64,000 nt of DNA. Origin: Clostridia bacterium. Its GTDB lineage: Bacteria; Bacillota; Clostridia; Christensenellales; UBA1242. The notes below the pieces were generated by a model. It searched no databases, had not been told where the DNA came from, and worked only from the letters and a program-made list of their open reading frames with translations. Numbering within the stretch: position 1 is the first letter of the stretch; every line of letters starts with the position of its first letter. Of the stretch, positions 9,247 to 63,045 are shown piece after piece. A program made the position numbers and the translations under genes. Where the stretch lies: positions 124,001 to 188,000 of the forward strand of contig JAFTMH010000001.1 of NCBI GenBank assembly GCA_017452445.1, read 5' to 3'.

Positions 9247-10125
9247 TTCGTTTTTATTGTTGTTTGTGTTGAACATCTCATTAAACTCAAAATACTTTCC
9301 GCTTTGTTTGTAACCTACAAAAGTGTCCAAGTTGACATTGTGTATGCTTTTGAAGATGTGATTTTCAACTTCTGGAATATCTTTTTTGAGTTGTTTGATA
9401 AGTTTTTTAACTTCCAATCTTGCAGAAGGCGAAATTTCATCATCAGCCAAATTGCACTTTTCCGTGAATCTGCAAGCACATTGCAAAAAAGTCAATTCGT
9501 TTGCATCTCGCCAAGCAATAATGGCATCTTCGTGCACACAATAAAGTGGACGAATAAGTTCCATACCATCAAAGTTTTGCGAACGAAGTTTTGGCAGCAT
9601 TGCTTGAAGTTGTGCCCCATAAAGCATACCCATCACAGTTGTTTCAATCACATCACTATAATGATGTCCCAAAGCAATTTTGTTGCAACCAAGTTTTTTT
9701 GCTTCGTTGTAAAGGTGTCCCCTTCTCATTCTTGCACACAAATAGCAAGGGGATTTTTCAATGTTGACAACATTGTCAAAAATGTCAGTTTCAAAAATGT
9801 TGAGAGGGATTTCAAGTTTTTTCGCATTTTCTTCAATTTGTTTTCTGTTTGCAGGGTTGTAACCAGGATCCATACAAAGAAAAACAAGTTCAAAATTTGT
9901 TTCGCTGTATCGGTGAAGCATTTGCATAAGTTTTGCCAAAAGCCAACTATCTTTGCCACCAGAAACACAAACAGCGACTTTGTCCCCATCATTTACAAGT
10001 TGATAATCTTTAAGTGCTTGAATAAATTTTGACCAAATCCCCTTCTTAAATCGTTTCATAATAGATCGCTCAACAAGTTGGGCTTTGGTAAACACTTTTT
10101 CTTTTTTTTCTGTCTTTTCTTCCAT
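9241..10125 (-). CDS. TtcA-like tRNA 2-thiolation ATPase (PP-loop)
   Basis: The 294-aa product has the PP-loop VCVSGGKDSWLL near residue 60 and the TtcA-type Cys pair CYLCARMRRG, with a further Cys cluster (QCACRFTEKC). TtcA enzymes use an Fe-S cluster to thiolate C32 of tRNA; the exact target here is inferred. The ATG at 10125 has no Shine-Dalgarno. Instead TTGATA-17-TATTAT ends 6 nt before it, which predicts a leaderless mRNA. Upstream in-frame TTG at 10170 is less likely. Confidence 0.82.
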   Translation of the reverse strand: MEEKTEKKEKVFTKAQLVERSIMKRFKKGIWSKFIQALKDYQLVNDGDKVAVCVSGGKDSWLLAKLMQMLHRYSETNFELVFLCMDPGYNPANRKQIEENAKKLEIPLNIFETDIFDNVVNIEKSPCYLCARMRRGHLYNEAKKLGCNKIALGHHYSDVIETTVMGMLYGAQLQAMLPKLRSQNFDGMELIRPLYCVHEDAIIAWRDANELTFLQCACRFTEKCNLADDEISPSARLEVKKLIKQLKKDIPEVENHIFKSIHNVNLDTFVGYKQSGKYFEFNEMFNTNNNKNEE

Positions 10126-10131
10126 AAAGAC

Positions 10132-10160
10132 ATAATACAATTTTTTGCAAAAAATATCAA
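10132..10160 (-). promoter_or_regulatory. Leaderless-type promoter of the TtcA-like gene
   Basis: TTGATA (10155-10160), 17-nt spacer, TATTAT (10132-10137), then six nt and ATG. The +1 position would fall on the A of the start codon. Confidence 0.65.
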
Positions 10161-10178
10161 TTGTTTGCAAGTCAAAGT

Positions 10179-10301
10179 TTACAAATCATCTGCATCTTGC
10201 ACTGGTGTATCGTTTGGATTTTCAGGCACTCCAGTATAAGCACCCAATGGATCATTTTTGCTTTGAAACAAATTTCTCTTTTTGCGGCTTTTCTTTTTCA
10301 T
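10179..10301 (-). CDS. Conserved 40-aa small protein
   Basis: A basic N-terminus (KKKSRKKR) is followed by NDPLGAYTGVP and a C-terminal PVQDADDL. I recall similar very small proteins with this tail in Clostridia genomes, where function is unknown. ATG at 10301 is chosen because the longer frame to 10382 crosses the degV terminator and overlaps degV. No Shine-Dalgarno is visible. The gene sits between degV and the TtcA-like gene. Confidence 0.7.
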   Translation of the reverse strand: MKKKSRKKRNLFQSKNDPLGAYTGVPENPNDTPVQDADDL

Positions 10302-10321
10302 ATTGATAACTTGTGCAAAAA

Positions 10322-10347
10322 ACAAAAAAATAGAGCAAAAATGCCCC
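10322..10347 (-). terminator. Terminator after degV
   Basis: Minus-strand GGGGCA/TGCTCT stem with a 4-nt loop, including G.U pairs, followed by a run of seven T. Confidence 0.65.
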
Positions 10348-10368
10348 ATTTTTTCAATTTTTTTGATA

Positions 10369-11214
10369 TTATTGTCCATCATTGAGATACAAAATGCCTA
10401 AAGTGTTTTCTCCACAGTGGCTTGTGATTGTCGCCCCAGCAACAGTTTCGTAAATGTTTTTGAAGCCCCTTTCTTGCAACGAAGCCTTTGCTGCTGCAAT
10501 CATTTCTTCTGTTGCAGTTGTGTATGTGACAAATGCTGTGCTAAGGTCAGGTGTTGCAAATTCGTCCAATGTGTCTTTGCAATAGCTTGCAATAACCTTG
10601 TCCATATTGCCTCTGTATTTTCTATGGACACCCATTTTGCCTTCTTTCAAAATGATTTGAGGTCTAATTCTCATCAAATTTGCACCCAAAAGAGCAACTG
10701 CCGAACATCTTCCACCTTTGTGCAAATAGTCCAATTTTTCCACAACAAAACTTGCTTGAACTTTGCTTGTGCGAAGTTGAACTTTTTTGTAAATTTCGGC
10801 AGGCTCTACACCTTCGTCTGCAAGTTGTTTTGCATAAATAGCAAGAAGAGCAATGCCTGTTGAAAGAGATTGAGAGTCAACAACAAAAACATTGTCCATT
10901 TCACTTGCAGCATCTTTTGCATGCGAACAAGCACTTGAAATTTGACTTGAAAGACAAATGTGCACAACTGCATCATTTTCTTTAAGCAAACCTTCAAAAA
11001 AGTCATGATATTGTGCCGCATTGATTGCTGCAGTTTTTGGCAAAACCTTTGTTTCTTTCACATAATCAAAAATTTGTTTTGGGCTAATTTCTTCGCCATC
11101 TAAATATTCTTTATCTCCCAAAATGATTGTGTAAGGCATAATGTTGATTTGATATTTTTCCAACAAATCTTTAGGCAAATCAATGGTGCTTTCTGCAGAT
11201 ATAGCAATTTTCAT
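10369..11214 (-). CDS. DegV-family fatty-acid-binding protein
   Basis: The 281-aa product matches the DegV fold, which in Firmicutes (FakB) binds an acyl chain and presents it to the FakA kinase. Visible family features are SAESTIDLP at the N-terminus, SSQISSACSHA, VVDSQSLSTG and KLDYLHKGGR. The start at 11214 follows GGAGGAAGTT. No fakA homologue is present in this window, so whether it acts in exogenous fatty-acid uptake is inferred. It is transcribed alone or with the 40-aa gene if the terminator is read through. Confidence 0.88.
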   Translation of the reverse strand: MKIAISAESTIDLPKDLLEKYQINIMPYTIILGDKEYLDGEEISPKQIFDYVKETKVLPKTAAINAAQYHDFFEGLLKENDAVVHICLSSQISSACSHAKDAASEMDNVFVVDSQSLSTGIALLAIYAKQLADEGVEPAEIYKKVQLRTSKVQASFVVEKLDYLHKGGRCSAVALLGANLMRIRPQIILKEGKMGVHRKYRGNMDKVIASYCKDTLDEFATPDLSTAFVTYTTATEEMIAAAKASLQERGFKNIYETVAGATITSHCGENTLGILYLNDGQ

Positions 11215-11316
11215 AACTTCCTCCAACAGTTTCATTATACTACCTTTTGGCAAAATATAAAAACAAATCAACAAATTCGCCAAAAAGTTGTTAAAAGTTT
11301 TTAATCATTTCCACAA

Positions 11317-11346
11317 AAAAAGAGTGGCAAAATTTGTCACTCTTTT
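11317..11346 (-). terminator. Terminator after the LamG/esterase lipoprotein gene
   Basis: Minus-strand AAAAGAGTG/CACTCTTTT stem followed by seven T. A near-identical hairpin ends tilS. Confidence 0.8.
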
Positions 11347-11364
11347 CGTTTTCTAATTTGATTT

Positions 11365-16240: not shown

Positions 16241-18535
16241 TTAGAAATCCAAAATTTTTACTACGACAACTGTCATATCATCAACAGCATAACCATTATT
16301 TTGCGAAAGTGCACTCTCAAGCAACAAGTCTGCAAACTCTTGTGGATTTTTTGTTTTTATCGATTTGATTGCTTCTTGCAATTGTTCGTCTGTTTCAAAA
16401 CTGTCGCACACACCATCTGAAAGCAAAATCACAAAATCTTTGCTGCTTGCAACCTGCTTGTTTGTAAGTGGCGAAATCTCTTCAACAATCCCCAAAGGCA
16501 ACGATCCTGTTTGAATTTTTTTGCATTCGTTTTCATTCAAAATGTAAGAGCAAGGTGAGGCCATTTTGACAAAATCCAACATTCCACTTCTCTGATCAAG
16601 CACACACAAATCAAGCGCACTGAAAATTTCTTCTTTGTGCAAAGAAAGCAATTTGTTGACTGTCGACAAAATGATTTCGTTGTCAAACCCTGCTTTATAA
16701 AAATTTTCTACCAAACTGATTGCAAGTTCGCTCACACTTTCTGCCTTGTCGCCGCTTCCCATTCCGTCACTTATGGCAAACAAAATTTTGTCCCCATCAA
16801 GTTTGACAATGCTGTATGTGTCGCCGCTTACATTTGATCCACTTTTTGTCTTTTGGCTGATTGCAAAAAGGCAATCAAATTTGGGTGCTGTCTTGATGTT
16901 GACAATTGTATAACCTGGTCTTGAACACTCAAACATGTCACAAACTTGCATCTTGCAATTGCACACTTTTGAAACAACGTCCACAATGCGAGGTTTTGTG
17001 CAATCTTCATTTCGCACCACAACCGAAACTTCTTGCGTCCAAACATCTTTTTCATAAACAATTGCATCAATGCAAATGATGTTGTAATAAGTCAACTCGT
17101 CCAAAATTTTGTTTTCAAGTGTTGTGTCAAAAGATATGTTTGTTTCGACTTCTTTTGCAAGTTTGCCCATGATTTTTGAAACCCCTTGCAATTGATCTGC
17201 AACAATCATCTTGCTTGTGTCAACATCTTTGACCATGCCGATATATTTTTTGTATTGTGATGTAAGTGTGTTGATACTGCCTAAAATTCCGTTTGTTTGC
17301 TTGCAACGAGAAGTCAAAAAACTTGGCATATCCAAAACTGTCGCCTTGCCCTTTTCATAAGCCACGGTCACAAGTTGATCAAACACTTGATCGGTTTTGT
17401 CAGCAAAAGTGCGCAAGCAGTGACTACGCTCTGGACAATACGAGCAAATTTTGTCGCAAATTTCTTGTTTGAGCACAACTTTTGCATCTTCAAAATTCAT
17501 ACCTCGTTTTATCATGTTGCGATAAATCATATTCATATCATTAAAAATTTCTGACAAATTGCCAAGTCTTTTATACAAGATTTCACGATTTCGATTTACA
17601 ACATTTTTCATTGCCAATCTATCTTTTGACAAATTGAAAATTGCAGCAAAATTGTCATAAACTTTTTTCGGCAAAACCATAAAAACCACACACGCAATCA
17701 CAAGTGGCAATGCTTCGACAACAGAAAATGTTGCATAAAGTCTGAAATAAAACCCAATCACCACTTCCACACAAGCAAGTGCTACAACCATAAAAATACG
17801 AAACCGTTTTTTAAACAACAAAACAGCAACAGCCCAAATGACAAATGGTGTAACAAAAAGTGGATTGTTTGTCGCAATCAACGATCCAATGCCTGCAGTT
17901 GATGCAACAAGCAGTGTGAGAAATGGCGAAGCGCAATAAGCAAACACCAACAAAACAAAGCCAACAAACAGCTTCAAAAAACTGAAAGTTGCAATGTTTG
18001 TGATTGCAAGTCCACTGCACAAAACTGCAATGATGCAAAACAGCGACACAATTTCAAAGTTTGTAAGTTTGTTTGTAAAACCTCTTATGATGATCGCTTC
18101 AAACAAACCGATACACACAAACATAAACAACACCGAAAGCAACAACGAAATTGCACAAACAAGTGGCGAAACACCACCCAAAATGTCAAACACCAAGTTT
18201 GCAGTTTGCCCCACAAGTGCATACACCCCAAACTCCCACTTACGCATGTTTTTCTTGCACAACACATGCACGAAATAAGGAAACAAAATTGCAAAAGATT
18301 GCACCAACAAGCAAATTGAAAATTCTAGCGTTGCACTGTGTGCCACCCCTGCCAATATGTATGTCGGCACAACCAACCACACTTTTTGATTTGCCCAAAC
18401 AAGTGCATACATCATTCCGATTGCAAATGGAAAAATAATGCAGTTTACACTTGCATTAAACAAAACATAAAAAACAACAAAAAAACATATTATTTTGCCG
18501 ATTATTTGCATAATTTTACTCGAATTTGTCTTCAT
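16241..18535 (-). CDS. spoIIE: Stage II sporulation protein E (SpoIIE) phosphatase
   Basis: Membrane PP2C-type phosphatase that dephosphorylates SpoIIAA to activate sigma-F in the forespore and takes part in septation. The 764-aa product has about ten N-terminal membrane segments (to about residue 300), a central region with a CxxCxxxxxC cluster (CSYCPERSHC), and a C-terminal PP2C domain from about 570 with SGDTYS, AISDGMGSGDKA and LLSDGVCD. AGAGG lies before ATG 18535. Its presence indicates descent from spore-formers. It is followed by tilS. Confidence 0.93.
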   Translation of the reverse strand: MKTNSSKIMQIIGKIICFFVVFYVLFNASVNCIIFPFAIGMMYALVWANQKVWLVVPTYILAGVAHSATLEFSICLLVQSFAILFPYFVHVLCKKNMRKWEFGVYALVGQTANLVFDILGGVSPLVCAISLLLSVLFMFVCIGLFEAIIIRGFTNKLTNFEIVSLFCIIAVLCSGLAITNIATFSFLKLFVGFVLLVFAYCASPFLTLLVASTAGIGSLIATNNPLFVTPFVIWAVAVLLFKKRFRIFMVVALACVEVVIGFYFRLYATFSVVEALPLVIACVVFMVLPKKVYDNFAAIFNLSKDRLAMKNVVNRNREILYKRLGNLSEIFNDMNMIYRNMIKRGMNFEDAKVVLKQEICDKICSYCPERSHCLRTFADKTDQVFDQLVTVAYEKGKATVLDMPSFLTSRCKQTNGILGSINTLTSQYKKYIGMVKDVDTSKMIVADQLQGVSKIMGKLAKEVETNISFDTTLENKILDELTYYNIICIDAIVYEKDVWTQEVSVVVRNEDCTKPRIVDVVSKVCNCKMQVCDMFECSRPGYTIVNIKTAPKFDCLFAISQKTKSGSNVSGDTYSIVKLDGDKILFAISDGMGSGDKAESVSELAISLVENFYKAGFDNEIILSTVNKLLSLHKEEIFSALDLCVLDQRSGMLDFVKMASPCSYILNENECKKIQTGSLPLGIVEEISPLTNKQVASSKDFVILLSDGVCDSFETDEQLQEAIKSIKTKNPQEFADLLLESALSQNNGYAVDDMTVVVVKILDF

Positions 18536-18570
18536 ATCAAACCTCTTTTTCAATTGTAATTTCAACAACA

Positions 18571-18604
18571 AAAAAACGACAGAAAAAATTTGTCGCTTTT
18601 TGTT
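18571..18604 (-). terminator. Terminator-like hairpin between cwlD and spoIIE
   Basis: Minus-strand GCGACA...TGTCGTT stem with an A/T-rich loop, followed by seven T. Confidence 0.6.
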
Positions 18605-18630: not shown

Positions 18631-19326
18631 TTACAAACTCTCAAAATATTTCAAAATCCCGCAAAAAATTGCATAACACATTTGTTGTTGATATTCTTTG
18701 TCTTGCAACAAAAGTTCTTCTTTATCGTTTGACAAAAAACCACATTCAATCAAAATGCTCGGCTTGTCTGCACAGTTTAAAATGTAATAATCCCCCACTT
18801 TTGCTTTTGAGTTGCGCACTTGCATTGTTTCAAAAAAAATCTCTTGCACAGCATTTGCCAGCATCTGACCTTGCACACTTTCTTTGGCATAAAAAACATT
18901 TGCACCACAAACAGATTTGTCGGCAAAACTGTTCATATGAATGCTCACCACCAAATCTGCTTTGCTTTTTTCGATAATCTCTTTTCGCTTTTCCATTTCG
19001 CTTCGCTTTTTGTTTGAAGCAAGTGGCGAATAAAGCCCCGACAAATCACTTCTCGTCAAAACAACCTTCCAGCCATACTCTTGACAAATTTGTTTTAAGG
19101 TTTGCGCAAACTGCAGGTTGAGTTCGTTTTCTGTTATGCCTGTTTGCGAGCCGACTGCACCACCATCAACTCCACCGTGTCCAGCATCGACAACTATTGC
19201 AAATTGTGGTTTTGGCGACATTGTTTTCTTTGCCCCTACAACGCCCAACACGCCGGTTGCCATTGTCAAAACGACCAAAACACAAACCAAAAACTTTTTC
19301 TTTAACACAACAAACACATTTTTCAT
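18631..19326 (-). CDS. cwlD: N-acetylmuramoyl-L-alanine amidase, CwlD-like
   Basis: Amidase_3-type zinc hydrolase; CwlD makes muramic-lactam in spore cortex, needed for germination. The 231-aa product has an N-terminal membrane segment (about residues 10-30), VDAGHGGVDGGA with a zinc His, the zinc Glu in ITENELNLQ, SIHMNSF and the catalytic region ILIECGFLSN. The neighbour spoIIE supports a sporulation role over general autolysis. No Shine-Dalgarno is visible; a TATAGT box ends 5 nt before the ATG, so a leaderless mRNA is possible. Confidence 0.87.
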   Translation of the reverse strand: MKNVFVVLKKKFLVCVLVVLTMATGVLGVVGAKKTMSPKPQFAIVVDAGHGGVDGGAVGSQTGITENELNLQFAQTLKQICQEYGWKVVLTRSDLSGLYSPLASNKKRSEMEKRKEIIEKSKADLVVSIHMNSFADKSVCGANVFYAKESVQGQMLANAVQEIFFETMQVRNSKAKVGDYYILNCADKPSILIECGFLSNDKEELLLQDKEYQQQMCYAIFCGILKYFESL

Positions 19327-19331: not shown

Positions 19332-19337
19332 ACTATA
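19332..19337 (-). promoter_or_regulatory. Leaderless-type -10 box of cwlD
   Basis: Minus-strand TATAGT, five nt, then ATG at 19326. No good -35 box is visible, and no ribosome-binding site lies between. Confidence 0.45.
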
Positions 19338-20035: not shown

Positions 20036-20065
20036 TTGACTTTTTGTGCGCAAAGGTGGTTTAAT
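20036..20065 (+). promoter_or_regulatory. Leaderless-type promoter of the SH3-like membrane protein
   Basis: TTGACT (20036-20041), 18-nt spacer, TTTAAT (20060-20065), then six nt and ATG at 20072. AAAGGTGG lies inside the spacer, 12 nt before the ATG, too far for an ideal ribosome-binding site and upstream of the predicted start. Confidence 0.6.
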
Positions 20066-20071: not shown

Positions 20072-20743
20072 ATGAAAAAATTGTTTGCAACCTTTCTTTT
20101 GATGTTTGCTGTGTTGAGCGTTGTTATGCCGATTTCTTCGGCATATGCTCTTTCTGACCAACAATATTGCATTGTTGCAAACAAGGCAGTGTTATACGAA
20201 TTGCCATCGTTTTCGTCAACAAAACTTGCGACAATCTCATTAAACGCAAAAGTTGACATTCAATTTGATGGCGACAGTGAAAAGATTTATTCTGACGGAA
20301 CATACTCTTTCTACAAAGTTTTGCAATACGACAATGGCGAAACCAAACTTGATGGTTATGTTTTGGCAGATTTGATAGTAAAACAAAAACACACAGTCAA
20401 GACAATACCAAACTTCAATGCAAAAACAAATGCCCCTTGCATAGTGTATTATGCAAATGGCGAAGAATTTGAAGAAAGTGAAATATCTTTACCAAAAAAA
20501 CACAAACTTTTCCTTTATGAAGGGTTTGACAAAAACAAAACTTTTATTGCCGTTTGTTTTGTTTATGAAAATGATGTGATTTATGGCTTTTTGCAAAAAG
20601 ATTACATCAGTCCAAACGGAGTAAACCCAATAATCATCACCTGCATCACCCTTGTGATTGCTCTGCTTGGCATCATCTTTGCTTGGTTGTTTATGAAAAA
20701 CAAAAAGTCAAAGAAAGCAAAAATCAACATCGTAAAAAAATGA
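20072..20743 (+). CDS. Secreted/membrane-anchored SH3-like protein
   Basis: The 223-aa product has a cleavable signal peptide (KKLFATFLLMFAVLSVV, probable cleavage after SAYA). A bacterial SH3-like module follows (about 28-110), with the pattern ANKAVLYELPSFSSTKLATI and DGYVLADLI. A second extracellular part is followed by one C-terminal membrane helix (IIITCITLVIALLGIIFAWLF) and a Lys-rich cytoplasmic tail. It is probably anchored facing the cell wall. The function is unknown. No close neighbour shares its transcription unit. Confidence 0.75.
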   Translation: MKKLFATFLLMFAVLSVVMPISSAYALSDQQYCIVANKAVLYELPSFSSTKLATISLNAKVDIQFDGDSEKIYSDGTYSFYKVLQYDNGETKLDGYVLADLIVKQKHTVKTIPNFNAKTNAPCIVYYANGEEFEESEISLPKKHKLFLYEGFDKNKTFIAVCFVYENDVIYGFLQKDYISPNGVNPIIITCITLVIALLGIIFAWLFMKNKKSKKAKINIVKK

Positions 20744-23334: not shown

Positions 23335-25305
23335 CTATTTTTGTGCTTTCAATTTGGCTTCTACAAATCTTGCAAGGTTTTTTACTGTAAAACCTGCTTT
23401 TGCAAGCACATCTTCGCCAAGCCCACTCTTTTGATAAGTGTCGATGCCAAACACTTCACAGTTTTTGCCAAACACTTTATACCACTTTGTGTCGTTGCTT
23501 GCTTCAATCACAAGCACCAATTTTGCTTCTTTGCTGATAATCTTGTTTTTGTAAGCTGTTGGTTGTTTTTCAAAAACTTCGATTGATGGCATTGAAACAA
23601 CATTGACTTCGTATTTTTTTGAAAGTTCTTTTTCAAGCTTGCAGGCAAGTGGAACTTCGCTTCCGGTTGCAACCAAAACAATGTCCGGTTTTGCAGAATT
23701 GTTTGTAAGCAAATAACCACCTTGCAAAGCGCCGTGATAAGAAGTGTCTTCAACCTTTTCAACATCTTGCTTCGAAAGCAAGAATGTCACTGGCAAATAA
23801 TCCTTGACTGCAACAGTATAACCAGCAACCAACTCTTTGTAGTCACATGGTCTAAACACAATGTTGTCGATAATGCTTCTCAACTGCGAAAGTTGTTCGA
23901 TCGGTTGATGTGCTGGACCATTTTGCCCAACAGCAATTGAGTCGTGTGTCAAAAAGTTGAGCACAGGCAACTTCATCATGCTTCTCAAACGATATGCTGG
24001 ATAGGCATAGTTTGAAAATGCTAAAAAACCAGATTCAAAAGTGATAAAATCGTCATACAACGCAATACCGTTGCATACAGCACTCATTGCGTGTTCTCTT
24101 ATGCCAAAATGTATATTTTTGCCTCGTCTATAACCTGCAGAAAAGTTTCCTGCGTTGTCCACATAAGTTTCTGTCAAAGGTGCAACATCGGCAGTGCCTC
24201 CAATAAGTTGTGGGCATTGATAAGCCAATTCGCTCAAAGCATAATGGTTGATGTGTTTTGTGCTGCTGCCAGCATATTTTGCAGTGTTGCGCAAAATTCT
24301 TTCAAAGTTGATTTTCTTGCGATCAAAAAACGCCAAAAAACTCTTGTAAAGTTGTGGGTGTGTGCTTGAATACATAGCCAAGTTTTGATTCCACTTTTCG
24401 TGATTGAGTTTGCCCCTTCTGGTGCTAGCCATACAAAATTCTCTCACATCACTTGGGATATAGAAGCTTTCTTTAACCTTCAATTCTTTCTTAAAGCTTG
24501 CCAACTCTTGTGGTGACAAAACTGCATTGTGCACAGCTGAAGTGCCTTCTTGTTGTGTGCCAACGCCAATTGTTGTGTGAAAAATAATGAGTGTTGGTTT
24601 TTTGCTCTTTTTTGCTTTTGCAATTGCTTTTGTGCAACTTGCATACGAATTGCCCTTTTTGACTTTGATGACATTCCAACCCATAGAATAAAACTTAAAC
24701 GCCAAATTTTCTCTGTTTGACAAATTTAAAGGTCCGTCAATAGTCACATCATTTTTGTCATAAAGCAAAATGAGTTTGTTGAGTTTGAGTGCCCCTGCCA
24801 AACTTGCCGCTTCCAAAGCAACACCTTCCATCAAATCGCCATCGCCTGCAAAGCAATATGTGTAGTTGTTGATAATGTCAGAGCCAACAGTGTTGAAACG
24901 CTCTTCCATGATTGATTCTGCAATTGCCATGCCGACAGCATTTGCAACCCCTTGTCCCAAAGGTCCTGTCGAAACTTCAACCCCTTCGGTCACTCCATAT
25001 TCTGGGTGTCCTGGTGTTTTTGATCCATATTGTCTAAACTCTTTCAAATCTTGCAAACTTACATCAAAGCCAAACATAGAAAGCAATGTGTAATAAAGTG
25101 GACTTGCATGACCTGCCGACAAAACCAATCTGTCTCTGTTTAAGAAATCCGGATCAGAGATGTCAAAGTTGTAGTGATCTTTAAACAACGCAAAAAGAAT
25201 GGAAGATGCACCAAGTGTAACCCCCAAATGTCCCGATTTTGCATTTGTGATTGTTTCTGCAGAAATTGCTTTTAAATAGTTTTGTGTCTTTTGAACGATA
25301 TTCAT
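23335..25305 (-). CDS. tkt: Transketolase
   Basis: Thiamine-diphosphate enzyme of the non-oxidative pentose phosphate pathway. The 656-aa product shows SAGHASPLYY, STGPLGQGVANAVGMA, the ThDP motif GDGDLMEG, the pyrimidine-domain GIREHAM and a C-terminal VVSMPSIEVFE segment. Domain order and length fit full transketolase, not the split type. GGGAG precedes the ATG, which overlaps the stop of the upstream kinase-like gene by 4 bp (ATGA). Confidence 0.96.
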   Translation of the reverse strand: MNIVQKTQNYLKAISAETITNAKSGHLGVTLGASSILFALFKDHYNFDISDPDFLNRDRLVLSAGHASPLYYTLLSMFGFDVSLQDLKEFRQYGSKTPGHPEYGVTEGVEVSTGPLGQGVANAVGMAIAESIMEERFNTVGSDIINNYTYCFAGDGDLMEGVALEAASLAGALKLNKLILLYDKNDVTIDGPLNLSNRENLAFKFYSMGWNVIKVKKGNSYASCTKAIAKAKKSKKPTLIIFHTTIGVGTQQEGTSAVHNAVLSPQELASFKKELKVKESFYIPSDVREFCMASTRRGKLNHEKWNQNLAMYSSTHPQLYKSFLAFFDRKKINFERILRNTAKYAGSSTKHINHYALSELAYQCPQLIGGTADVAPLTETYVDNAGNFSAGYRRGKNIHFGIREHAMSAVCNGIALYDDFITFESGFLAFSNYAYPAYRLRSMMKLPVLNFLTHDSIAVGQNGPAHQPIEQLSQLRSIIDNIVFRPCDYKELVAGYTVAVKDYLPVTFLLSKQDVEKVEDTSYHGALQGGYLLTNNSAKPDIVLVATGSEVPLACKLEKELSKKYEVNVVSMPSIEVFEKQPTAYKNKIISKEAKLVLVIEASNDTKWYKVFGKNCEVFGIDTYQKSGLGEDVLAKAGFTVKNLARFVEAKLKAQK

Positions 25306-25778
25306 ATTGTTCTCCCAATTGCGTCAAGCACCTTGTCGCAAACGAAATTTAAATCAGTTTTTCTCACTTCCACACAAATTGTGCAAAGTTGTTTAAGGTT
25401 GTTTGTGTGCTCTTGAAAGCAAATCACATTTGCAACTTGTGCATGTTTTGAAACAAATTCTTTGCCAAGTTTGACAAACACAATCAAACTGTGTTTTTTG
25501 AAAATGTCAAAATTGTGGACAAGTGTGTCATAGTCAATCGAAACAACCACATCTTCAAACGAAGCGATATGCTTTAGCGCTCGCTTTTCGCATTTGTCCA
25601 AATATTCTTTTGTGGAAAGTTCTTTAAGTCTGTCTTTGTCAATAAGTTCGTATTCTACCAATTCTTTGGCATCACAAAACATCATGTGTAAATTTTGCGA
25701 AAGCATCTTGCCCAAATCTTGAGAAAAGCTGTCGCAAAGCGAAACAATGACTATTTTGTTGAAAACTTGCTCATTCAT
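25302..25778 (-). CDS. Shikimate-kinase-like protein lacking the P-loop
   Basis: The 158-aa product follows the layout of shikimate kinases: a beta strand (KIVIVSL), a helix, a FCDAKELVEYELI segment in place of the DxD..IE region, KEYLDKCEKRALKHI in place of the GExxFRxxE region, and a late VVSID and FVKL strand. The glycine-rich GxxGxGKS loop is replaced by SLCDSFSQDLG, so ATP binding of the usual kind seems lost. It is coupled to tkt by a 4-bp overlap. A leaderless-type promoter lies upstream. The assignment is by pattern only. Confidence 0.5.
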   Translation of the reverse strand: MNEQVFNKIVIVSLCDSFSQDLGKMLSQNLHMMFCDAKELVEYELIDKDRLKELSTKEYLDKCEKRALKHIASFEDVVVSIDYDTLVHNFDIFKKHSLIVFVKLGKEFVSKHAQVANVICFQEHTNNLKQLCTICVEVRKTDLNFVCDKVLDAIGRTI

Positions 25779-25784: not shown

Positions 25785-25813
25785 ATTTTAGCATAAACTT
25801 GTTTTATTGTAAA
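25785..25813 (-). promoter_or_regulatory. Leaderless-type promoter of the kinase-like/tkt operon
   Basis: Minus-strand TTTACA, 17-nt spacer ending in TGC (extended -10), TAAAAT (25785-25790), six nt, then ATG at 25778. Confidence 0.65.
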
Positions 25814-26939: not shown

Positions 26940-27788
26940 TTAAATAAACTCTATCTCTTCTTTGTCAATTTGTTTAAATTTTTTCTTTTTTGCCTTGCCT
27001 TCAAACAGTTTCACAATTTGAGGCATTGCATCAATGGCGTTTTTGTAACCTTCTTCAACCATTTCGTCAAGTCCTTCAAGTTGAGTCGGTTTGAAACGGC
27101 GATTGTCTGTGCCGATCATCACATCAGCACACTCATAACCTTTGACGGCATTGCTCTTCATAAGCACTCTGATTGTGCAACCAAGCACATCTAAAACCTT
27201 TTTGCTGTCTGTGCCATAAGTGCGTGTGCTGTTGCAATCGACAGCAACAACATAGTCGCAATCGAAATATCTTGGTATGTTTGCAGGGATTGTGTTTTGA
27301 AGTCCACCATCTGCCAACAATCTGTCGTCAAATTCAACTGGGTGAAAAAATCCGGGCACACAACAACTGCCTGCAACTGCTTTTGCAAGATTGCCGTGAC
27401 TTATGCAAACTTGATTTGTGCTTTTAAGGTCAACTGCAATCGCTGAAAATGGAGTTTTGAGATCTTCGATGTTGATATCACCAAAAGCATCAATCAACAG
27501 TTTTTGAATCCCATCAGTTTTTGAAGTCATAAACGCAATTTTGCTTGTGCGAATGTCTTTCACTTTTACACTTTTTGCAAGATTGTAAATTTCATCAAAT
27601 GACATGCCAGAAGCATAAGCAGCACCCATAATGCTGCCAACGCTTGTCCCACACACATAATCAAACTTGATGCCATATTGCTCAAATGCCTTTATTACGC
27701 CAATGTGCGACATTCCTCTTGCTGCACCACCACCAAAAGCAATGCCCACTTTTGGTTTTCTTTTCATCAAACTAAATATACTTTTCAT
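26940..27788 (-). CDS. Patatin-like phospholipase
   Basis: Serine acyl hydrolase with a Ser-Asp dyad. The 282-aa product shows the oxyanion GGGAARG (19-25), the nucleophile GTSVGS (Ser49) and the Asp of LLADGGLQN (Asp160), as in the RssA/YlbK type. A Lys-rich tail follows. The ATG at 27788 has no Shine-Dalgarno; an extended -10 TGATATAAT ends 6 nt before it, so a leaderless mRNA is predicted. It faces the SPOR-like gene across a short shared intergenic region and leads into the MBL-fold gene. Confidence 0.9.
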   Translation of the reverse strand: MKSIFSLMKRKPKVGIAFGGGAARGMSHIGVIKAFEQYGIKFDYVCGTSVGSIMGAAYASGMSFDEIYNLAKSVKVKDIRTSKIAFMTSKTDGIQKLLIDAFGDINIEDLKTPFSAIAVDLKSTNQVCISHGNLAKAVAGSCCVPGFFHPVEFDDRLLADGGLQNTIPANIPRYFDCDYVVAVDCNSTRTYGTDSKKVLDVLGCTIRVLMKSNAVKGYECADVMIGTDNRRFKPTQLEGLDEMVEEGYKNAIDAMPQIVKLFEGKAKKKKFKQIDKEEIEFI

Positions 27789-27794: not shown

Positions 27795-27800
27795 ATTATA
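27795..27800 (-). promoter_or_regulatory. Leaderless-type extended -10 box of the patatin gene
   Basis: Minus-strand TGATATAAT with the hexamer at 27800-27795, then six nt and ATG at 27788. No clear -35 box is visible. Confidence 0.6.
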
Positions 27801-27870: not shown

Positions 27871-27876
27871 TATAAT
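27871..27876 (+). promoter_or_regulatory. Leaderless-type -10 box of the SPOR-like gene
   Basis: A consensus TATAAT is followed by five nt and the ATG at 27882, with no ribosome-binding site possible between them. Confidence 0.6.
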
Positions 27877-27881: not shown

Positions 27882-28607
27882 ATGAAAAAGTTTTCTATTT
27901 TAAGTTTGTTGATTTTTGTGCTTGGATTTGGAATTTGTCTGTCATGCAGTTGGTTTTTCTCTTCTGCAATTTTGTCTGCAAACTTTTCAACTGCCACCAA
28001 CAAAGTCGCCGTTGAAAAACAAACGCTTTATGCCATTTGCATAAACAGATGCTCCAACCCCACTCAACTTGATGAAGAAATATCAACTTTGCAAAATCAA
28101 AATGGTGCAGGTTTTGTTTTTGAAAAAGATGGCCAGTTTTTGCTTTTGGCAAGTTTATATCAAAATCAATCAGATGCCGAAAAAGTAAAAAACAATCTTG
28201 TGGCAAGTGGAACAAATTGTTCGGTCGAAAAACTCACGGTTTCTGCAAAAAGCATTTCCGGAAACTTCACTTCACAGCAAAAAGACATCTTGTCGCAGTG
28301 TTTAAAAATCAACCTGCAAACCTTTAAAGATTTGTATGATGTGGCCATAAGTTTGGACACAAAAGTTTTTGACAAACCTAAAGCAAAACTCGAATGCAAC
28401 AACATCTTTGCAAAATTGATTGCAGTCAAAACAAACTTTGAAACTTTTTTTGAAACAGACCTTTCAAAAACATCTTTCAAAGAAATAAAATCTGCACTAG
28501 AAAAGACCGAATCTTGTTTAAGCAAACTGATTGGTGAAAATTTTGAAAATGCAGGGCAAACATTTTCTTCATTAATTAAATTGACATATTTTAAAATATT
28601 ATTTTAA
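27882..28607 (+). CDS. Membrane-anchored SPOR-like protein
   Basis: The 241-aa product has an N-terminal membrane helix (about 5-28). A region at about 48-120 follows that resembles the SPOR peptidoglycan-binding fold: ICINRCSNPTQLDEEIST, then GAGFVFEKDGQFLLLASLYQNQSDAEKVKNNL and a short strand. The rest is helical with no recognised domain. It is predicted to sit in the membrane facing the wall. The assignment rests on pattern only. Its start appears leaderless. A very A/T-rich stretch follows. Confidence 0.65.
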   Translation: MKKFSILSLLIFVLGFGICLSCSWFFSSAILSANFSTATNKVAVEKQTLYAICINRCSNPTQLDEEISTLQNQNGAGFVFEKDGQFLLLASLYQNQSDAEKVKNNLVASGTNCSVEKLTVSAKSISGNFTSQQKDILSQCLKINLQTFKDLYDVAISLDTKVFDKPKAKLECNNIFAKLIAVKTNFETFFETDLSKTSFKEIKSALEKTESCLSKLIGENFENAGQTFSSLIKLTYFKILF

Positions 28608-34699: not shown

Positions 34700-35584
34700 C
34701 TATTCCACTACAATAATTTCTCTGCAAAGCGAAATGCCACATTTGGCACATTCAACCTCTGCAAGTTTGACCAAATCTAAAAAATCTTTGCTTGTTGCGT
34801 TGTCCACATTCACAACAAAACCAGCATGTTTTTTGGATATCTCTGCTCCACCTATTTTAACACCTTTCAGCCCCAAATTGTCAATCAATTTTGCAGGATA
34901 AACAATCTCTCCGTCTTTTTCACATCTCTTGAAAACACTTCCAAGTGATGGATAGTTGAGTGGTTGCGTTTTCTGTTTTTGGGTAAAGTTTTCAAAACAA
35001 ACTTTTTCTACCAAATTTGGCAGTTCTTTTTTTAGTTGCAATTTTACCCACAAAATGGTTTTATTGTCAAAATTTGCCCATCTATAGCCAAATTTTAGTG
35101 CATTTTTGTCAATTTTTTGCAGTTTTCCATCTTCAAAACACACAACACTCTCAATCAACTCACTTATCTCATGCCCAAAACAACCTGCATTCATTTTTGT
35201 CAGGCCGCCTATTGTTGCAGGTATGCCATAAGACCACTCAAACCCACTCAAACCCCATTCGATCAGTTTTTTGTGAAGCACAAAAAGATTTGCACCTGCC
35301 CCACACCAAACACAATCTCCCACTTTTTTAATTTTGCAAAAGTGCTTAAGCGAAATCACCACCCCATCAAACCCATTGTCAGAAAACAAAACATTGCTCC
35401 CATTTCCAACAACAAAGGTTTTGAGATTGTTTGCACAAGCAATCTTAAACACCGTTTTTACTTCTGCAACATTTTTAGGAAACACAACAAATCTAGCATT
35501 GCCACCAATTTTGACAGTTGAAAAGTCCTTTAGCGAAGCATTTTCAATTGTTTCAATATCATCAAACATATTTTCTTTAAACAT
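34700..35584 (-). CDS. murB: UDP-N-acetylenolpyruvoylglucosamine reductase
   Basis: FAD enzyme that reduces UDP-GlcNAc-enolpyruvate in peptidoglycan synthesis. The 294-aa product has GNGSNVLFSDNGFDGVVI, GIPATIGGLTKMNAGCFG, the Tyr-Arg of FGYRWA, SLGSVFKR with the catalytic Ser and a final Glu in CREIIVVE, as in type II MurB. Two Met codons at 35584 and 35569 are possible starts and neither has a Shine-Dalgarno. Extended -10-like TGCATAAAT lies just before the first. dtd follows. Confidence 0.93.
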   Translation of the reverse strand: MFKENMFDDIETIENASLKDFSTVKIGGNARFVVFPKNVAEVKTVFKIACANNLKTFVVGNGSNVLFSDNGFDGVVISLKHFCKIKKVGDCVWCGAGANLFVLHKKLIEWGLSGFEWSYGIPATIGGLTKMNAGCFGHEISELIESVVCFEDGKLQKIDKNALKFGYRWANFDNKTILWVKLQLKKELPNLVEKVCFENFTQKQKTQPLNYPSLGSVFKRCEKDGEIVYPAKLIDNLGLKGVKIGGAEISKKHAGFVVNVDNATSKDFLDLVKLAEVECAKCGISLCREIIVVE

Positions 35585-35631
35585 ATTTGAAATTTATGCA
35601 TACACAAACCATTTTGCCATTGTTTTTGCAA

Positions 35632-54624: not shown

Positions 54625-54627
54625 TTG

Positions 54628-59026: not shown

Positions 59027-59049
59027 GTGGACAATCTAAATAAAATAAA

Positions 59050-59077: not shown

Positions 59078-59081
59078 CTTG

Positions 59082-59156: not shown

Positions 59157-59176
59157 ATATCAACGGTTACTGTCAT

Positions 59177-59205
59177 ATTATACTCTAAAACACATTATAT
59201 GTCAA
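59177..59205 (-). promoter_or_regulatory. Promoter of tRNA-Asn
   Basis: Perfect consensus on the minus strand: TTGACA (59200-59205), 17-nt spacer, TATAAT (59177-59182). Confidence 0.9.
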
Positions 59206-59246
59206 TAAATTTAGTCAAAAAAATTAAACTTTTTCAATTTTTTGCA

Positions 59247-59278
59247 ACAAAAAAGACACGGAAATCCGTGTCTTTTTC
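59247..59278 (-). terminator. Terminator after the ABC transporter gene
   Basis: AAAGACACGG/CCGTGTCTTT stem with a 4-nt loop, followed by T-runs. Confidence 0.85.
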
Positions 59279-59291
59279 TATTTGCATTTTC

Positions 59292-61136
59292 TTAGATGTT
59301 TTCTGCCAAGAACATAAGTCTAAATTGTTCGTTTCTATCAAACAATTCTTCAAATGTGCCTTCGTCTACAATTTTTCCTTCACTTAAGAAGAAGATTTTG
59401 TCGACATTTTTGATGGTAGAAAGTCTGTGGGCAACAATAACAATTGTGCTTTTTCCTTTCATCATATCGATGCTTTTCTTAACTTCTTCTTGTGCAAAGT
59501 TGTCAAGCGAACTTGTGCTTTCGTCAAAGATGATAATGTTTGATTTTCTAAGCATTGCTCTTGCAATAGCAAGTCTTTGCTTTTGTCCACCAGAAAGTTT
59601 GATACCACTTTCGCCAACCTTTGTTTCGATACCTTTTGGCAACGAACTTACAAACTCTTCAAGTGATGCTTTTTTGATTGAATCCAAAATTTCTTCATCA
59701 GTCGCATCTGCTTTTGCAAGCAACAAGTTTTCTTTGATTGTCATATCAAATATGTAAGGAAATTGGTTTACAAGTGAGATTGTTCTTCTAAGTGTTTCTT
59801 TGTCAAAATCATTGATGTCAACACCGTCAATAAGCACTTCGCCGGCATCAGCAACATACATTTTTGACATCAAATTAAGGATTGTTGACTTTCCACTTCC
59901 AGACTTTCCAACGAAAGCAACGGTTGTGTTTGGTTCGACCTTAAATGACAAGTTGTCGAAGATTTTGTTCTCTGAAATAAGGGTTTTTGAAGCCTTTTTT
60001 CTTGATTTTTTCTTCTTTTTTCGCTTCTTTTGATCTTCTTCTTGTTCTTGTGGAGTCTTGTATTCATACTCCTTAAATGTGTAAGAAACTCCCTTAAATT
60101 CGATGTTTCCAACAACATTTTCTCTGTTTATTTTACCAAATTTTTCTGTTACAAATTCATCTTCATCAAACAAAGCAAACATTCTTTCGTGGCTTACTTT
60201 GATGTCCACAATCCAGTTTGAGATTGCCCCAAAGTTCCAAATAAGTCTTGAAAGTGATCCCCTGTTTGAGTAGATAACCATAAATGCACCAAGTGTTAAA
60301 GTTCCTTTGTCCATAAGGGTAATACCCAAAATGCAAACCAAAACACCCACGATTTCGCTGATAAAGTTTCTTGTTGAATAGAAAGTCATATCGGCAATTT
60401 CGTATTTTGTTCTCGCATTTCTATAATCTTCATAGTTTTTACGAGACACTTGACTCAATTTTTCTTCCAAGCCAAGTGATTTGATGTCCTTTTCACTTCT
60501 GACAATTTCAGTTGTGAGAGAGTGAATTTTGTCGTTCTTGATTCGCAAGTTTCGCTTGTTTTTTCTTCTGAATTTTACTCTATACAATTCGAGTATAACT
60601 CCAACAGCCATCGCTCCCAAGAAGACAAGTGTAACCCAGAAGTTGAGTGTCGCAATGTAAACCAACATAATTACATTTGTGATAATATCTGTCACAACAT
60701 CAACCATATCAGCCAAACATTCGACGATTCTCTCTGGATCGTTTACAATTCTTTGCACAAATGTGCCTGTTTCGTGGTCATTGAATGTCTTAGAATTCAA
60801 CTTAAACGACTGTTTTGCCAAATCCAAGTTGAGTTCTGCCATAATCTTTGCTGCAGTTTTTGAATAAATCCAACCAGAAGCATACCAGCAACCCCTTTGC
60901 ACAGCCATAAGAGCCAAGCAATACAAGCAATATCGTATACCTAGCGAGTAGTTTGCAACGGAGTCGGAGATAACTTCAATCGCATTTGCAGCAGTGATTG
61001 TCATCAAAATGCTACAAGCACTGGCCACCAAATAGACAAAAATGTACAGCGAAATGCCAAGTTTGTGTCTGGACAAATAAGACAACAAATTCAGCTTTTT
61101 CTGCTTTTTTGCCTTGTTTTTTGTGTTCTTTTTCAT
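59292..61136 (-). CDS. ABC exporter, fused membrane and ATPase domains
   Basis: The 614-aa half-transporter has a Lys-rich start, six membrane helices (about 30-320) and a nucleotide-binding domain with Walker A GKSGSGKST (about 405-413), signature LSGGQ, Walker B IIIFDEST and the H-loop AHR. It is a homodimeric or heterodimeric exporter of lipid, peptide or drug type; the substrate is not predictable. A strongly basic insert (DQKKRKKKKKSRKK, about 362-384) lies just before the first ATPase strands, which is unusual. GGAGG precedes the ATG. Confidence 0.93.
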   Translation of the reverse strand: MKKNTKNKAKKQKKLNLLSYLSRHKLGISLYIFVYLVASACSILMTITAANAIEVISDSVANYSLGIRYCLYCLALMAVQRGCWYASGWIYSKTAAKIMAELNLDLAKQSFKLNSKTFNDHETGTFVQRIVNDPERIVECLADMVDVVTDIITNVIMLVYIATLNFWVTLVFLGAMAVGVILELYRVKFRRKNKRNLRIKNDKIHSLTTEIVRSEKDIKSLGLEEKLSQVSRKNYEDYRNARTKYEIADMTFYSTRNFISEIVGVLVCILGITLMDKGTLTLGAFMVIYSNRGSLSRLIWNFGAISNWIVDIKVSHERMFALFDEDEFVTEKFGKINRENVVGNIEFKGVSYTFKEYEYKTPQEQEEDQKKRKKKKKSRKKASKTLISENKIFDNLSFKVEPNTTVAFVGKSGSGKSTILNLMSKMYVADAGEVLIDGVDINDFDKETLRRTISLVNQFPYIFDMTIKENLLLAKADATDEEILDSIKKASLEEFVSSLPKGIETKVGESGIKLSGGQKQRLAIARAMLRKSNIIIFDESTSSLDNFAQEEVKKSIDMMKGKSTIVIVAHRLSTIKNVDKIFFLSEGKIVDEGTFEELFDRNEQFRLMFLAENI

Positions 61137-61155
61137 AATCCTCCTTTTTTAGAAC

Positions 61156-61190
61156 GCTACCATAGTAGCATATACATTTGAGTTTGTCAA
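61156..61190 (-). promoter_or_regulatory. Promoter of the ABC exporter with palindrome at the -10 box
   Basis: Minus-strand TTGACA (61185-61190), 17-nt spacer ending TGC, TACTAT (61162-61167). The palindrome GCTAC-CATA-GTAGC (61156-61169) covers the -10 box and could be an operator. Confidence 0.7.
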
Positions 61191-61206
61191 CAACTATTTT
61201 TAATAA

Positions 61207-61240
61207 AAAATAAAACCCAATTATTTTTGGGTTTTATTTT
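61207..61240 (-). terminator. Terminator after the 129-aa gene
   Basis: Long stem AAAATAAAACCCAA/TTGGGTTTTATTTT with a 6-nt loop, overlapping the stop region of the gene. Confidence 0.8.
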
Positions 61241-61623
61241 TTGTCAAATCCTAGTGCTGAAACAATGCCTCTAAAATCCTCTTTGCCTTTCAAAATCTGA
61301 AATCTTCTTGTCTTTCCATCAACAGTTTTGAACACAAATGAATTTACTTGCACCTTTGCAGAAGCGATGTTTTCTTTTTTTATAGACGATCCATCTTGGT
61401 AAAACAATGTCTTTTGTTTGTAAGGAACAACAATCAAACTGTCGCCCATCACAGAAAATGCATAGTCACAATCGCTTCGATTTTGCATAGTAAAACCCAA
61501 AAACACTGTCAAAAAAGACCACTTGCTGACATTGTTGATTGTGCCCACACCAACCAAACCACCATCAGCGATGCCTTTTTCGATAATTTCTTGTTTAATT
61601 TTTTCGTAAACTTTTTTGTTCAT
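61234..61623 (-). CDS. 129-aa protein, PH-like fold possible
   Basis: Not recognised with certainty. A helical N-terminus (MNKKVYEKIKQEIIEKG) is followed by strands such as AFSVMGDSLIVVPYKQKTLFY, ASAKVQVNSFVFKTVDGKTRRFQIL and a closing helix, a layout like bacterial PH domains. AAGGAG precedes ATG 61623. It has a strong consensus promoter, and its leader holds a DnaA-box match. Confidence 0.7.
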   Translation of the reverse strand: MNKKVYEKIKQEIIEKGIADGGLVGVGTINNVSKWSFLTVFLGFTMQNRSDCDYAFSVMGDSLIVVPYKQKTLFYQDGSSIKKENIASAKVQVNSFVFKTVDGKTRRFQILKGKEDFRGIVSALGFDKK

Positions 61624-61642
61624 TAAAACAAACTCCTTATAT

Positions 61643-61651
61643 TGTGGATAA
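61643..61651 (-). other. DnaA-box match in the leader of the 129-aa gene
   Basis: Minus-strand TTATCCACA, perfect 9-mer, between the promoter and the ribosome-binding site. Confidence 0.45.
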
Positions 61652-61667
61652 CTCTCCACTCGCTGTC

Positions 61668-61696
61668 ATTATAGCACTGCAATAAATCGATGTCAA
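61668..61696 (-). promoter_or_regulatory. Promoter of the 129-aa gene
   Basis: Minus-strand TTGACA (61691-61696), 17-nt spacer ending TGC, TATAAT (61668-61673), full consensus. Confidence 0.88.
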
Positions 61697-61731
61697 GACA
61701 AAAACCTTGACAATTTCAAAATTCTGCAAAA

Positions 61732-61757
61732 TAAAAAAACAGCATAACTGCTGTTTT
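61732..61757 (-). terminator. Terminator after the 175-aa gene
   Basis: AAAACAGCA/TGCTGTTTT stem with a 4-nt loop, then a T-run on the minus strand. Confidence 0.85.
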
Positions 61758-61771
61758 CATAAAAATTGTTG

Positions 61772-62299
61772 TTATTTGTTTAATTGTTTCATAACAGTTT
61801 CGTGAAAATGTGGCATAGAAAATTGATCTACACACCCATAATTAAGATGTATTCCTGTTTCAATTTCTCGTTCGCAAGCATAAAATTGTGATTGTCCTGT
61901 TGTGGCAGAAACACCCAATTCATAAATAAAAATTCTCACTGGACAATCTTCTGGTTTTTCAGTTTCTTTGAAAGCAATTGCAATCGCACAAGCATCAAGA
62001 GTCCTTGACACAAATGCTGATGGAAAGTGCACAAATATAACATTCCATTCACTGCTTTTTTTAATATCTCCGGTGATCCTCACTGGTGGAAACTCCCACT
62101 CTTTGAAACCACCCTCATATTTTTCACCAGTTTCCATATAATGAGTGTCTGCAACAGCCCAATTGTATGCTTCCTTTTCAATAAATATTTGCACATTGTT
62201 TGGATTTGGTGCAATTGTCTTAATAAAAAACTTTTTATTTTCAGGATTTTTGAAAAAACCTTCCAACAGTTGCTGTGTAAGATAATAATTTAATGTCAT
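61772..62299 (-). CDS. 175-aa hypothetical protein
   Basis: Not recognised. It is soluble, with no signal peptide or membrane helix; alternating strands and helices include FFIKTIAPNPNNVQIFIEK, EWNVIFVHFPSAFVSRTLDACAIAIAF and a His-rich end (PHFHETV). AAGGAGG lies before the ATG. It is transcribed alone, divergent from the P-loop protein gene. Confidence 0.7.
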   Translation of the reverse strand: MTLNYYLTQQLLEGFFKNPENKKFFIKTIAPNPNNVQIFIEKEAYNWAVADTHYMETGEKYEGGFKEWEFPPVRITGDIKKSSEWNVIFVHFPSAFVSRTLDACAIAIAFKETEKPEDCPVRIFIYELGVSATTGQSQFYACEREIETGIHLNYGCVDQFSMPHFHETVMKQLNK

Positions 62300-62316
62300 A
62301 CTTCCTCCTTACTTAC

Positions 62317-62345
62317 AAAATACCACACTGCATAGATTATGTCAA
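62317..62345 (-). promoter_or_regulatory. Promoter of the 175-aa gene
   Basis: Minus-strand TTGACA (62340-62345), 17-nt spacer, TATTTT (62317-62322). Confidence 0.7.
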
Positions 62346-62370
62346 TCAAATAATAATTTTTACAAAAGGG

Positions 62371-62400
62371 TTGCATTTACTTTGTTTGTTTTGCTATAAT
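62371..62400 (+). promoter_or_regulatory. Leaderless-type promoter of the P-loop protein
   Basis: TTGCAT (62371-62376), 18-nt spacer ending TGC, TATAAT (62395-62400), then six nt and ATG at 62407. Confidence 0.7.
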
Positions 62401-62406
62401 GCAACC

Positions 62407-63045
62407 ATGAAAATAAACAGAATCAAAAACATAGACGACATCAAAATTAATTTTGAAGATTTTCCAAGCAAATCAAACATTGTTCTTGTTATGGGATTGT
62501 CTGGAAGTGGAAAAAGTTATCTTTCAAATCAATTAGCAGAGAAGCATAATGCAACTTGTTTTCAACTAGAATGGCTTATCCATGCAAAACACACCAGCGA
62601 AGAATGTAAATATATCCTTGACACTTTTTTGCAACAGCACCCAGAGATTATTGAAAATGTGGACAACAAGTGGAATAACTGCAAAAGCGAAGACCAAAAC
62701 GACCTTCTCAAAGAATACATAAACAAATTTTTCTTACACTTTCTTGAAATGCGAGATCCAAACAAACTTTATGTTGTGGAAAGTTTGCAACTTTTTACTT
62801 TGATTGACTTTGAACTCATCAAAGATTATCCAATAATCGTGAAAGGCACATCAAGTTTCAAATCCTTGAAACAAAGATTAAAGAGAGACTTGGCAAAACC
62901 AAAAAACAAAAAAATATCTGCAAAGATCAAATACTTCTTCAAAGCACTCAACCAGAGCAGATTATATCAATTTAAACATCGCAAAGTGTTAAACAAATTC
63001 TTAAAAAGACACAACGAATACACAAAAAATAAAACAGTGGCATAA
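62407..63045 (+). CDS. P-loop NTPase, nucleotide-kinase-like
   Basis: The 212-aa product has a Walker A GLSGSGKS (residues 30-37) in a KSNIVLVMG setting and a later YVVESLQLFTL strand and basic helices (KSLKQRLKRDLAK). The fold looks like small kinases or zeta-type ATPases; the substrate is unknown. ATG 62407 is used, since upstream in-frame codons precede the promoter. No Shine-Dalgarno exists; the -10 box ends 6 nt upstream, as in other leaderless candidates here. A terminator overlaps the stop. Confidence 0.8.
   Translation: MKINRIKNIDDIKINFEDFPSKSNIVLVMGLSGSGKSYLSNQLAEKHNATCFQLEWLIHAKHTSEECKYILDTFLQQHPEIIENVDNKWNNCKSEDQNDLLKEYINKFFLHFLEMRDPNKLYVVESLQLFTLIDFELIKDYPIIVKGTSSFKSLKQRLKRDLAKPKNKKISAKIKYFFKALNQSRLYQFKHRKVLNKFLKRHNEYTKNKTVA

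Follow-up and report, generated by a model that had tools for sequence, protein, structure and literature searches.

Introduction

In Mycobacterium and other Actinobacteria, leaderless mRNAs are produced where the -10 element sets +1 on the start codon, and they exist beside genes led by a Shine-Dalgarno (SD) sequence; these genomes are high in GC, their leaderless share is larger than in the organism treated here, and GTG starts are used too. We report a comparable layout in a 64,000-nucleotide stretch of DNA (the window: 124001-188000 on contig 5 of assembly GCA_017452445.1) from an uncultured gut Clostridia bacterium of the order Christensenellales, whose genome comprises 1.107 Mb in 5 contigs and is 99.27% complete. 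Sigma-A-type promoters with a -10 element that ends 5-7 nucleotides (nt) before the ATG very probably give leaderless mRNAs in this organism, which would be read without an SD sequence.

Among Firmicutes, the part of the survey of Zheng et al. (2011, PMC3160421) considered here gives leaderless genes in 56 of 209 genomes, with a mean of 4.2% and a range of 2.4-16.6. The TA-led genes of that part of the survey resemble ours, since they carry TANNNT some 12 bp upstream of the start codon, have no SD sequence and stand alongside SD genes; the TAtAAT form is also the same, with TG ahead of it in several low-GC genomes. They differ in lineage, as the Firmicute cases given there are mostly from Lactobacillales and Mycoplasma, while ours are from uncultured gut Clostridia. 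For solventogenic clostridia, the corresponding portion of another study (PMC9045289) reports leaderless transcripts at 2-3% by mapped starts. These are Clostridia as well, with a minority of transcripts having a 5' untranslated region shorter than 6 bp, but the share was mapped there, whereas the somewhat higher 4-7% given below was estimated by sequence alone. The first-pass annotation of the window had called leaderless mRNAs not usual in Clostridia, and they are less unusual than that, our share being near the Firmicute level in the cited part of Zheng et al. The kind is therefore known and the lineage is the new part. In the open-access literature we found no paper on leaderless genes in Christensenellales, which says nothing on what is in print elsewhere, and none on leaderless and SD genes together in metagenome-assembled genomes.

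Layout of the window genes

In what follows, a strict box is a TA....T hexamer that departs from TATAAT at no more than one position, and Nx stands for x nt between the box and the start codon. The first-pass annotation had listed seven genes that lack an SD site and carry a -10 hexamer ending 5 or 6 nt before the ATG. This observation is confirmed; all seven hexamers and spacings are exact, with N6 at 10125, 20072, 25778, 27788 and 62407, and N5 at 19326 and 27882. The features are listed below.

9241..10125, minus strand: TtcA/TilS-like PP-loop gene, ATG at 10125, read as leaderless (PF01171; NF007972 below cut-off)
10132..10137, minus strand: -10 TATTAT, N6 to the ATG of 10125
10155..10160, minus strand: -35 TTGATA of 10125, spacer 17; TTG is conserved there in the ortholog logo
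18631..19326, minus strand: CwlD-like amidase gene, ATG at 19326, read as leaderless (PF01520; TIGR02883 below cut-off)
19332..19337, minus strand: -10 TATAGT, N5 to the ATG of 19326
20036-20041, plus strand: TTGACT, 18 nt upstream of the TTTAAT of 20072
20052-20059, plus strand: SD-like AAAGGTGG just before the 20072 box, unusually far from the ATG; SD score 5
20060..20065, plus strand: poor -10 TTTAAT, N6 to the ATG of 20072
20072..20743, plus strand: secreted-looking protein, ATG at 20072, a weak candidate with TTTAAT at N6 but also the SD-like sequence
23335-25305: transketolase, next after the 25778 gene
25302..25778, minus strand: shikimate-kinase-like protein without P-loop motif, ATG at 25778, read as leaderless
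25785..25790, minus strand: -10 TAAAAT, N6 to the ATG of 25778, with a conserved TGn before the box
25808..25813, minus strand: -35 TTTACA of 25778, spacer 17
26940..27788, minus strand: RssA-like patatin gene, ATG at 27788, read as leaderless (PF01734)
27795..27800, minus strand: -10 TATAAT, N6 to the ATG of 27788
27871..27876, plus strand: -10 TATAAT, N5 to the ATG of 27882
27882..28607, plus strand: membrane or secreted protein, divergent from 27788, read as leaderless (no Pfam or NCBIfam match)
34700..35584, minus strand: murB, no SD and no TATAAT box; own CATA box at 35595-35598
62371-62376, plus strand: TTGCAT, 18 nt upstream of the TATAAT of 62407
62395..62400, plus strand: -10 TATAAT, N6 to the ATG of 62407
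62407..63045, plus strand: P-loop protein, an accessory gene; good promoter, no conservation

By SD scoring, six of the seven genes indeed have no SD site, and 20072 is ambiguous with its score of 5. AGGAG-type sites do exist at many other genes of the window, and the proposed coexistence of two initiation modes was borne out: among 346 sampled genes, 145 have an SD match of at least 6 and 26 have the leaderless layout, while the anti-SD GGATCACCTCC is intact in the 16S. There may also be a short S1 protein, since a frame of 349 residues gave three matches to S1.

We propose that promoters of the usual sigma-A type, in some cases with a TGn extension of the -10, would drive these genes. RNA polymerase would begin with the A of the ATG, and ribosomes would take the 5'-terminal AUG of the resulting leaderless mRNA without SD pairing, while many other genes in the same cells would be translated through the usual SD route. 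At the level of sequence, this interpretation is supported by the specificity of the spacing, the pyrimidine at -1, the -35 elements, the first-in-operon position and the conservation of the spacing.

Excess of boxes at one spacing

The genome sample consists of the window and 19 stretches of 20 kb (444 kb), in which a home-made coding-potential finder called the 346 genes with 497 candidate ATGs. Chance was estimated from 6333 internal ATGs and from 60 dinucleotide shuffles of the upstream regions. At N6 the strict box was found before 16 of the 497 candidate ATGs when 0.47 were expected from the internal ATGs, compared with 7 against 2.0 at N7 and 4 against 1.6 at N5. When the shuffles are used, the 16 genes at N6 stand against 2.3 +/- 1.3 (maximum 7), 20 genes at N5-6 against 5.2 +/- 2.3 (maximum 11), and 26 genes at N5-7 against 7.8 +/- 3.0 (maximum 15). 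In bins, observed and expected counts are 27 and 4.2 for N5-7, 14 and 8.2 for N8-14, and 81 and 13.3 for N15-24. This two-part distribution separates promoters placed at the ATG from a second class with room for a leader.

The N6 spike belongs to ATG only, which differs from the Actinobacteria; it is absent for GTG (1 of 158) and TTG (2 of 493), and leaderless starts at these two codons were therefore rejected. In the whole genome TATAAT-N6-ATG occurs 40 times, compared with 7 for the reversed pattern and 13 for TATAAT at N9. Five further genomes of the genus, sampled on a small scale, gave observed/expected strict boxes at N6 of 2/0.5, 3/0.1, 4/0.6, 4/0.1 and 5/0.2. When chance (4.2 by internal ATGs or 7.8 by shuffles) is subtracted from the 26 of 346, with or without also subtracting four short-leader cases described below, the leaderless-type share is estimated at about 4-7% of the sampled genes.

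Signals around the start codon

From the start-site preference of RNA polymerase, a pyrimidine is expected at -1 if the A of the ATG is +1. It is present in 24 of the 26 leaderless-type genes and in 77 of the 145 genes with an SD match of at least 6 (p=1.3e-4), and the orthologue sets discussed below have it in 18/18, 13/13 and 28/28 cases at N6 and in 10/10 at N5. These counts bear on the idea that the mRNAs have a leader of 1-5 nt, with the start site slipping around the ATG, and are not strictly leaderless. RNA polymerase does vary its start-site choice by a base or two, and spacings of 5, 6 and 7 all occur, but with the pyrimidine beside the A of the ATG nearly fixed at N5 and N6 we regard such slippage as improbable.

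A -35 element (at least 4 of 6 matches to TTGACA) was found in 16 of the 26 genes compared with 19% of shuffles, and TGn stands ahead of the box in 13 of the 26. Only 1 of 25 leaderless-type genes has a same-strand neighbour within 40 nt, compared with 61 of 135 comparison genes. As a group, these genes would appear in silico to have promoters of their own, judged by the start-of-operon position and the -35 element.

Conservation in the genus

We searched 61 genomes of the genus (own included) for 10125, 19326, 25778, 27788, 62407 and murB kin, and read the DNA upstream of up to 30 top matches for each. Copies of 27882 were read from the 30 patatin (27788) loci, own included. The other 30 loci were also added for 27788, and the same loci yielded more copies of 25778; for these larger sets a looser box was used (TA...T, at most two mismatches to TATAAT, N5-N7, SD below 5). 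Stretches of genome G216, mostly short contigs, were left out.

The best-conserved case is 25778, which is present in 60 of the 61 genomes. The looser box is found at N5-N7 in all 51 distinct upstream regions, of which 49 were scored leaderless (47 N6, one N5 and one N7) and the remaining two have TATGAT at N6 plus an SD match (score 5) before a different candidate start. Both TGn and the pyrimidine at -1 are seen in 48 of the 49, and the layout persists even where protein identity falls to about 25-30%. The strict box is still present in 29 of the first 30 loci (28 N6, 1 N5), and the ortholog logo reads TTTGtAA, TTTGTGaTAAAAT, N6, ATG.

The 30 loci read for 10125 include five at the lowest identity (33-36%), which are probably paralogues and were set aside. 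At least 60% identity is reached by 20 loci, our own among them; the strict box stands at N6 in 13 and at N7 in 5 of these (18 in total), the remaining two show TAATAT at N6, and in 3 of the 20 another candidate start has an SD match of 4-5. Five further loci are at 56-59% identity, of which two are ambiguous and three combine an SD match (4-5) with a TATAAT that lies farther upstream. The box is present in 13 of 15 copies of 27882 (10 N5, 3 N6) and in 23 of 30 loci of 19326, own included (19 N5, 4 N6); one of the seven 19326 loci without it has an SD match of 6 and another has one of 4. For the patatin gene 27788, the box is at N6 in 18 of 20 and at N7 in 2 of 20, while the distance from the ATG to the GxAFGGG core ranges over 11-14 codons. 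Since the spacing is nearly fixed while the core distance varies, the promoter follows the ATG and not the protein core.

The patatin gene also appears to change its mode of initiation. Its named relatives are uncultured gut Clostridia, including Candidatus Caccopulliclostridium gallistercoris (Clostridia incertae sedis at NCBI) and 'uncultured Christensenella sp.'. In a quick tree of 60 orthologues scored with the looser box, the 22 rows accepted as leaderless, from 22 species, lie together on one side of a branch with a Shimodaira-Hasegawa-like approximate likelihood ratio (SH-aLRT) support of 96. The other side comprises 30 rows led by an SD, 6 whose SD is weak (4), 1 with neither signal and 1 false leaderless call (L214), which was rejected because its frame contains stops and its position is inside the SD side of the tree. 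A careful tree of the first 30 orthologues with the strict box has 20 leaderless, 9 SD and 1 unlabelled row (L046, a two-mismatch box), and the SD group again is one side of a branch (98/92). A single change of mode explains this sequence pattern, and no direction is assigned to it. Switching in itself is not new, as the part of Zheng et al. (2011, PMC3160421) considered here describes changes of the initiation signal between actinobacterial orthologues with evolutionary distance.

Counter-evidence and alternatives

The results collected in this section weigh against the leaderless reading or limit its reach. The count proposed by the first-pass annotation, loose TANNNT at N5-6 without SD against shuffled upstream regions, gave 28 against 19.4 +/- 4.2 (maximum 29), so that the enrichment exists in this form but is weak; for N5-7 it was 34 against 29.7 +/- 5.6. 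Such numbers speak for the alternative that the boxes are chance products of composition, with AT-rich upstream DNA rich in TANNNT and the true promoters lying farther upstream with non-SD leaders. Two of the seven window genes, 20072 and 62407, are not strong either and are weak members of the set. The 62407 gene is in only 3 of the 61 genomes (own included), the box is absent from the other two copies, and as a conserved case it was rejected. We nevertheless consider chance very unlikely as the explanation, on account of the strict-box spike at a single spacing, the excess of N6 over N9 (40 to 13 in this genome, and in the genus as given below) and the conservation of the spacing. Boxes at N5-7 are above chance for near-consensus boxes and weakly so for loose TANNNT; the enrichment is carried by near-consensus boxes.

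An SD-led start is found 12-51 nt downstream in 6 of the 26 candidates. Four of these six, in which the gene begins ATGGAG... and a second ATG follows after 12-15 nt, are probably short-leader SD genes, that is, genes transcribed from the upstream ATG and translated from a second ATG 12-21 nt later with a 5'-terminal GGAG(G) as the SD. The four sequences are ATGGAGGATAAGATG, ATGGAGGCACTTATG, ATGGAGAGAGGTATG and ATGGAGGTAATTTTTATG. The ATGGAG(G/A) cases were seen at L006:11205, L006:3687, L011:2794 and L014:19019, with a TATAAT-like box, and their mRNA would begin with the SD itself. As an account of the whole set, this is unlikely: 20 of the 26 candidates lack any SD-led start in the next 60 nt, and these include the set's three window genes, 10125, 19326 and 27788. 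The reading as leaderless mRNAs has further points to answer. A pyrimidine is at -1 in only 3 of the 5 orthologues of 10125 at N7, at N7 a box precedes 6 of 493 TTG codons, a count that has no computed expectation beside it, gene starts are uncertain owing to the home-made finder, and the ortholog counts are not independent owing to common ancestry.

The spread beyond this genome is subject to a similar reservation. In 25 genomes of the genus (own included), TATAAT-N6-ATG was counted 1047 times compared with 290 for the reversed pattern (ratio 3.6), and all 25 were above the control. Other families of the order (187 genomes) gave 6049 and 2669 (2.27; 179 of 187 above), other orders of the class (14 genomes) 668 and 382 (1.75), and other classes of the phylum (the first 100 of 383 genomes) 3124 and 2685 (1.16; 70 of 100 above). 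However, in the same 25 genus genomes the motif at N9 gave 614 against 337 reversed (1.8), and so the reversed control overstates the excess. When N6 and N9 are compared directly, 1047 against 614 in the genus, N6 is higher in 24 of 25 genomes; in other families of the order, represented here by 16 genomes, the counts are 575 and 391, with N6 higher in 12. A 100-kb sample of G154, from another family, had 54 genes and one N6 match, and is too small to profile. Because the reversed control is lenient, the motif counts make an excess across the whole order suggestive and do not prove it.

murB and sporulation genes

The first-pass annotation had added murB (35584) as a weaker eighth case, which does not stand. 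The window copy has no box at N5-7, only 4 of 30 loci have a strict one, and murB was rejected as leaderless since it has a different box, with CATA 13-16 nt before the ATG in 29 of 30 loci. CATA is at 13 nt in 23 of the loci within a TCATATAT-like box, and there is neither an SD nor a visible -35; among all 346 sampled starts, CATA at -15..-13 was found at 12.

Other sigma factors, for example those of sporulation, might act at murB and the CwlD-like gene 19326 through a box of their own near the ATG. The CwlD-like orthologues share TTTTGTTaTa and aATAAAATAcaAT, TCATATAT is common to the murB loci without a visible -35, and spoIIE lies within the window. Neither box was tied to a sigma factor here; we take this as a tentative alternative for these two genes, with somewhat less than an even chance.

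SpoIIE (16241-18571, minus strand) and the CwlD-like amidase (18631-19326, minus strand) are in the window and YunB is elsewhere in the 1.1-Mb genome; by gene content, this may be an endospore-forming organism whose genome is very small. In several genomes of the genus, short frames of about 50-120 residues resemble roughly residues 1-55 of the CwlD-like protein (for example G016:C7:30928-31080 and G160:C4:43768-43920); they share a contig with the complete gene, and at times there are several of them.

Discussion

Outside the window, the leaderless-type genes of the sample match, among others, MnmE, MiaB, TlyA, Der, uracil-DNA glycosylase and YunB above the cut-offs, and TadA, a TrhP-like U32 protein, PcrA and D-Ala-D-Ala ligase below the cut-offs. 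The scan covered 20 of the 23 non-window candidates, 8 of them without a match at 1e-20. Several RNA modification genes are among these, and no enrichment is claimed, the other 320 sampled genes being unannotated. Shikimate kinases carry the P-loop motif GxxGxGK[ST]. In an alignment of 14 sequences, the 25778 protein has an SLCDxFS-like sequence at that place, and its relation to solved shikimate kinases is weak (best E=0.00056). The product of the best-conserved leaderless gene may be a catalytically dead shikimate kinase relative, kept for another role.

As a speculative joint reading, and a rather doubtful one, leaderless initiation could be an old habit of the whole order, in which a core rich in tRNA/rRNA modification and repair would stay leaderless throughout the genus (25778 down to about 25-30% identity) while other genes would flip between leaderless and SD initiation in single events. 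Such genes may form a regulon favoured when normal initiation is impaired.

Leaderless genes were already known from Lactobacillales and Mycoplasma and, at a few percent, from Clostridium. The finding also affects annotation, as a coding-only gene finder placed the start of 25778 117 nt late and that of 27788 seven codons late. In this reduced gut lineage with many sequenced relatives, 27788 would be leaderless in one clade and is mostly SD-led in the other, which makes the switching of initiation mode directly testable.

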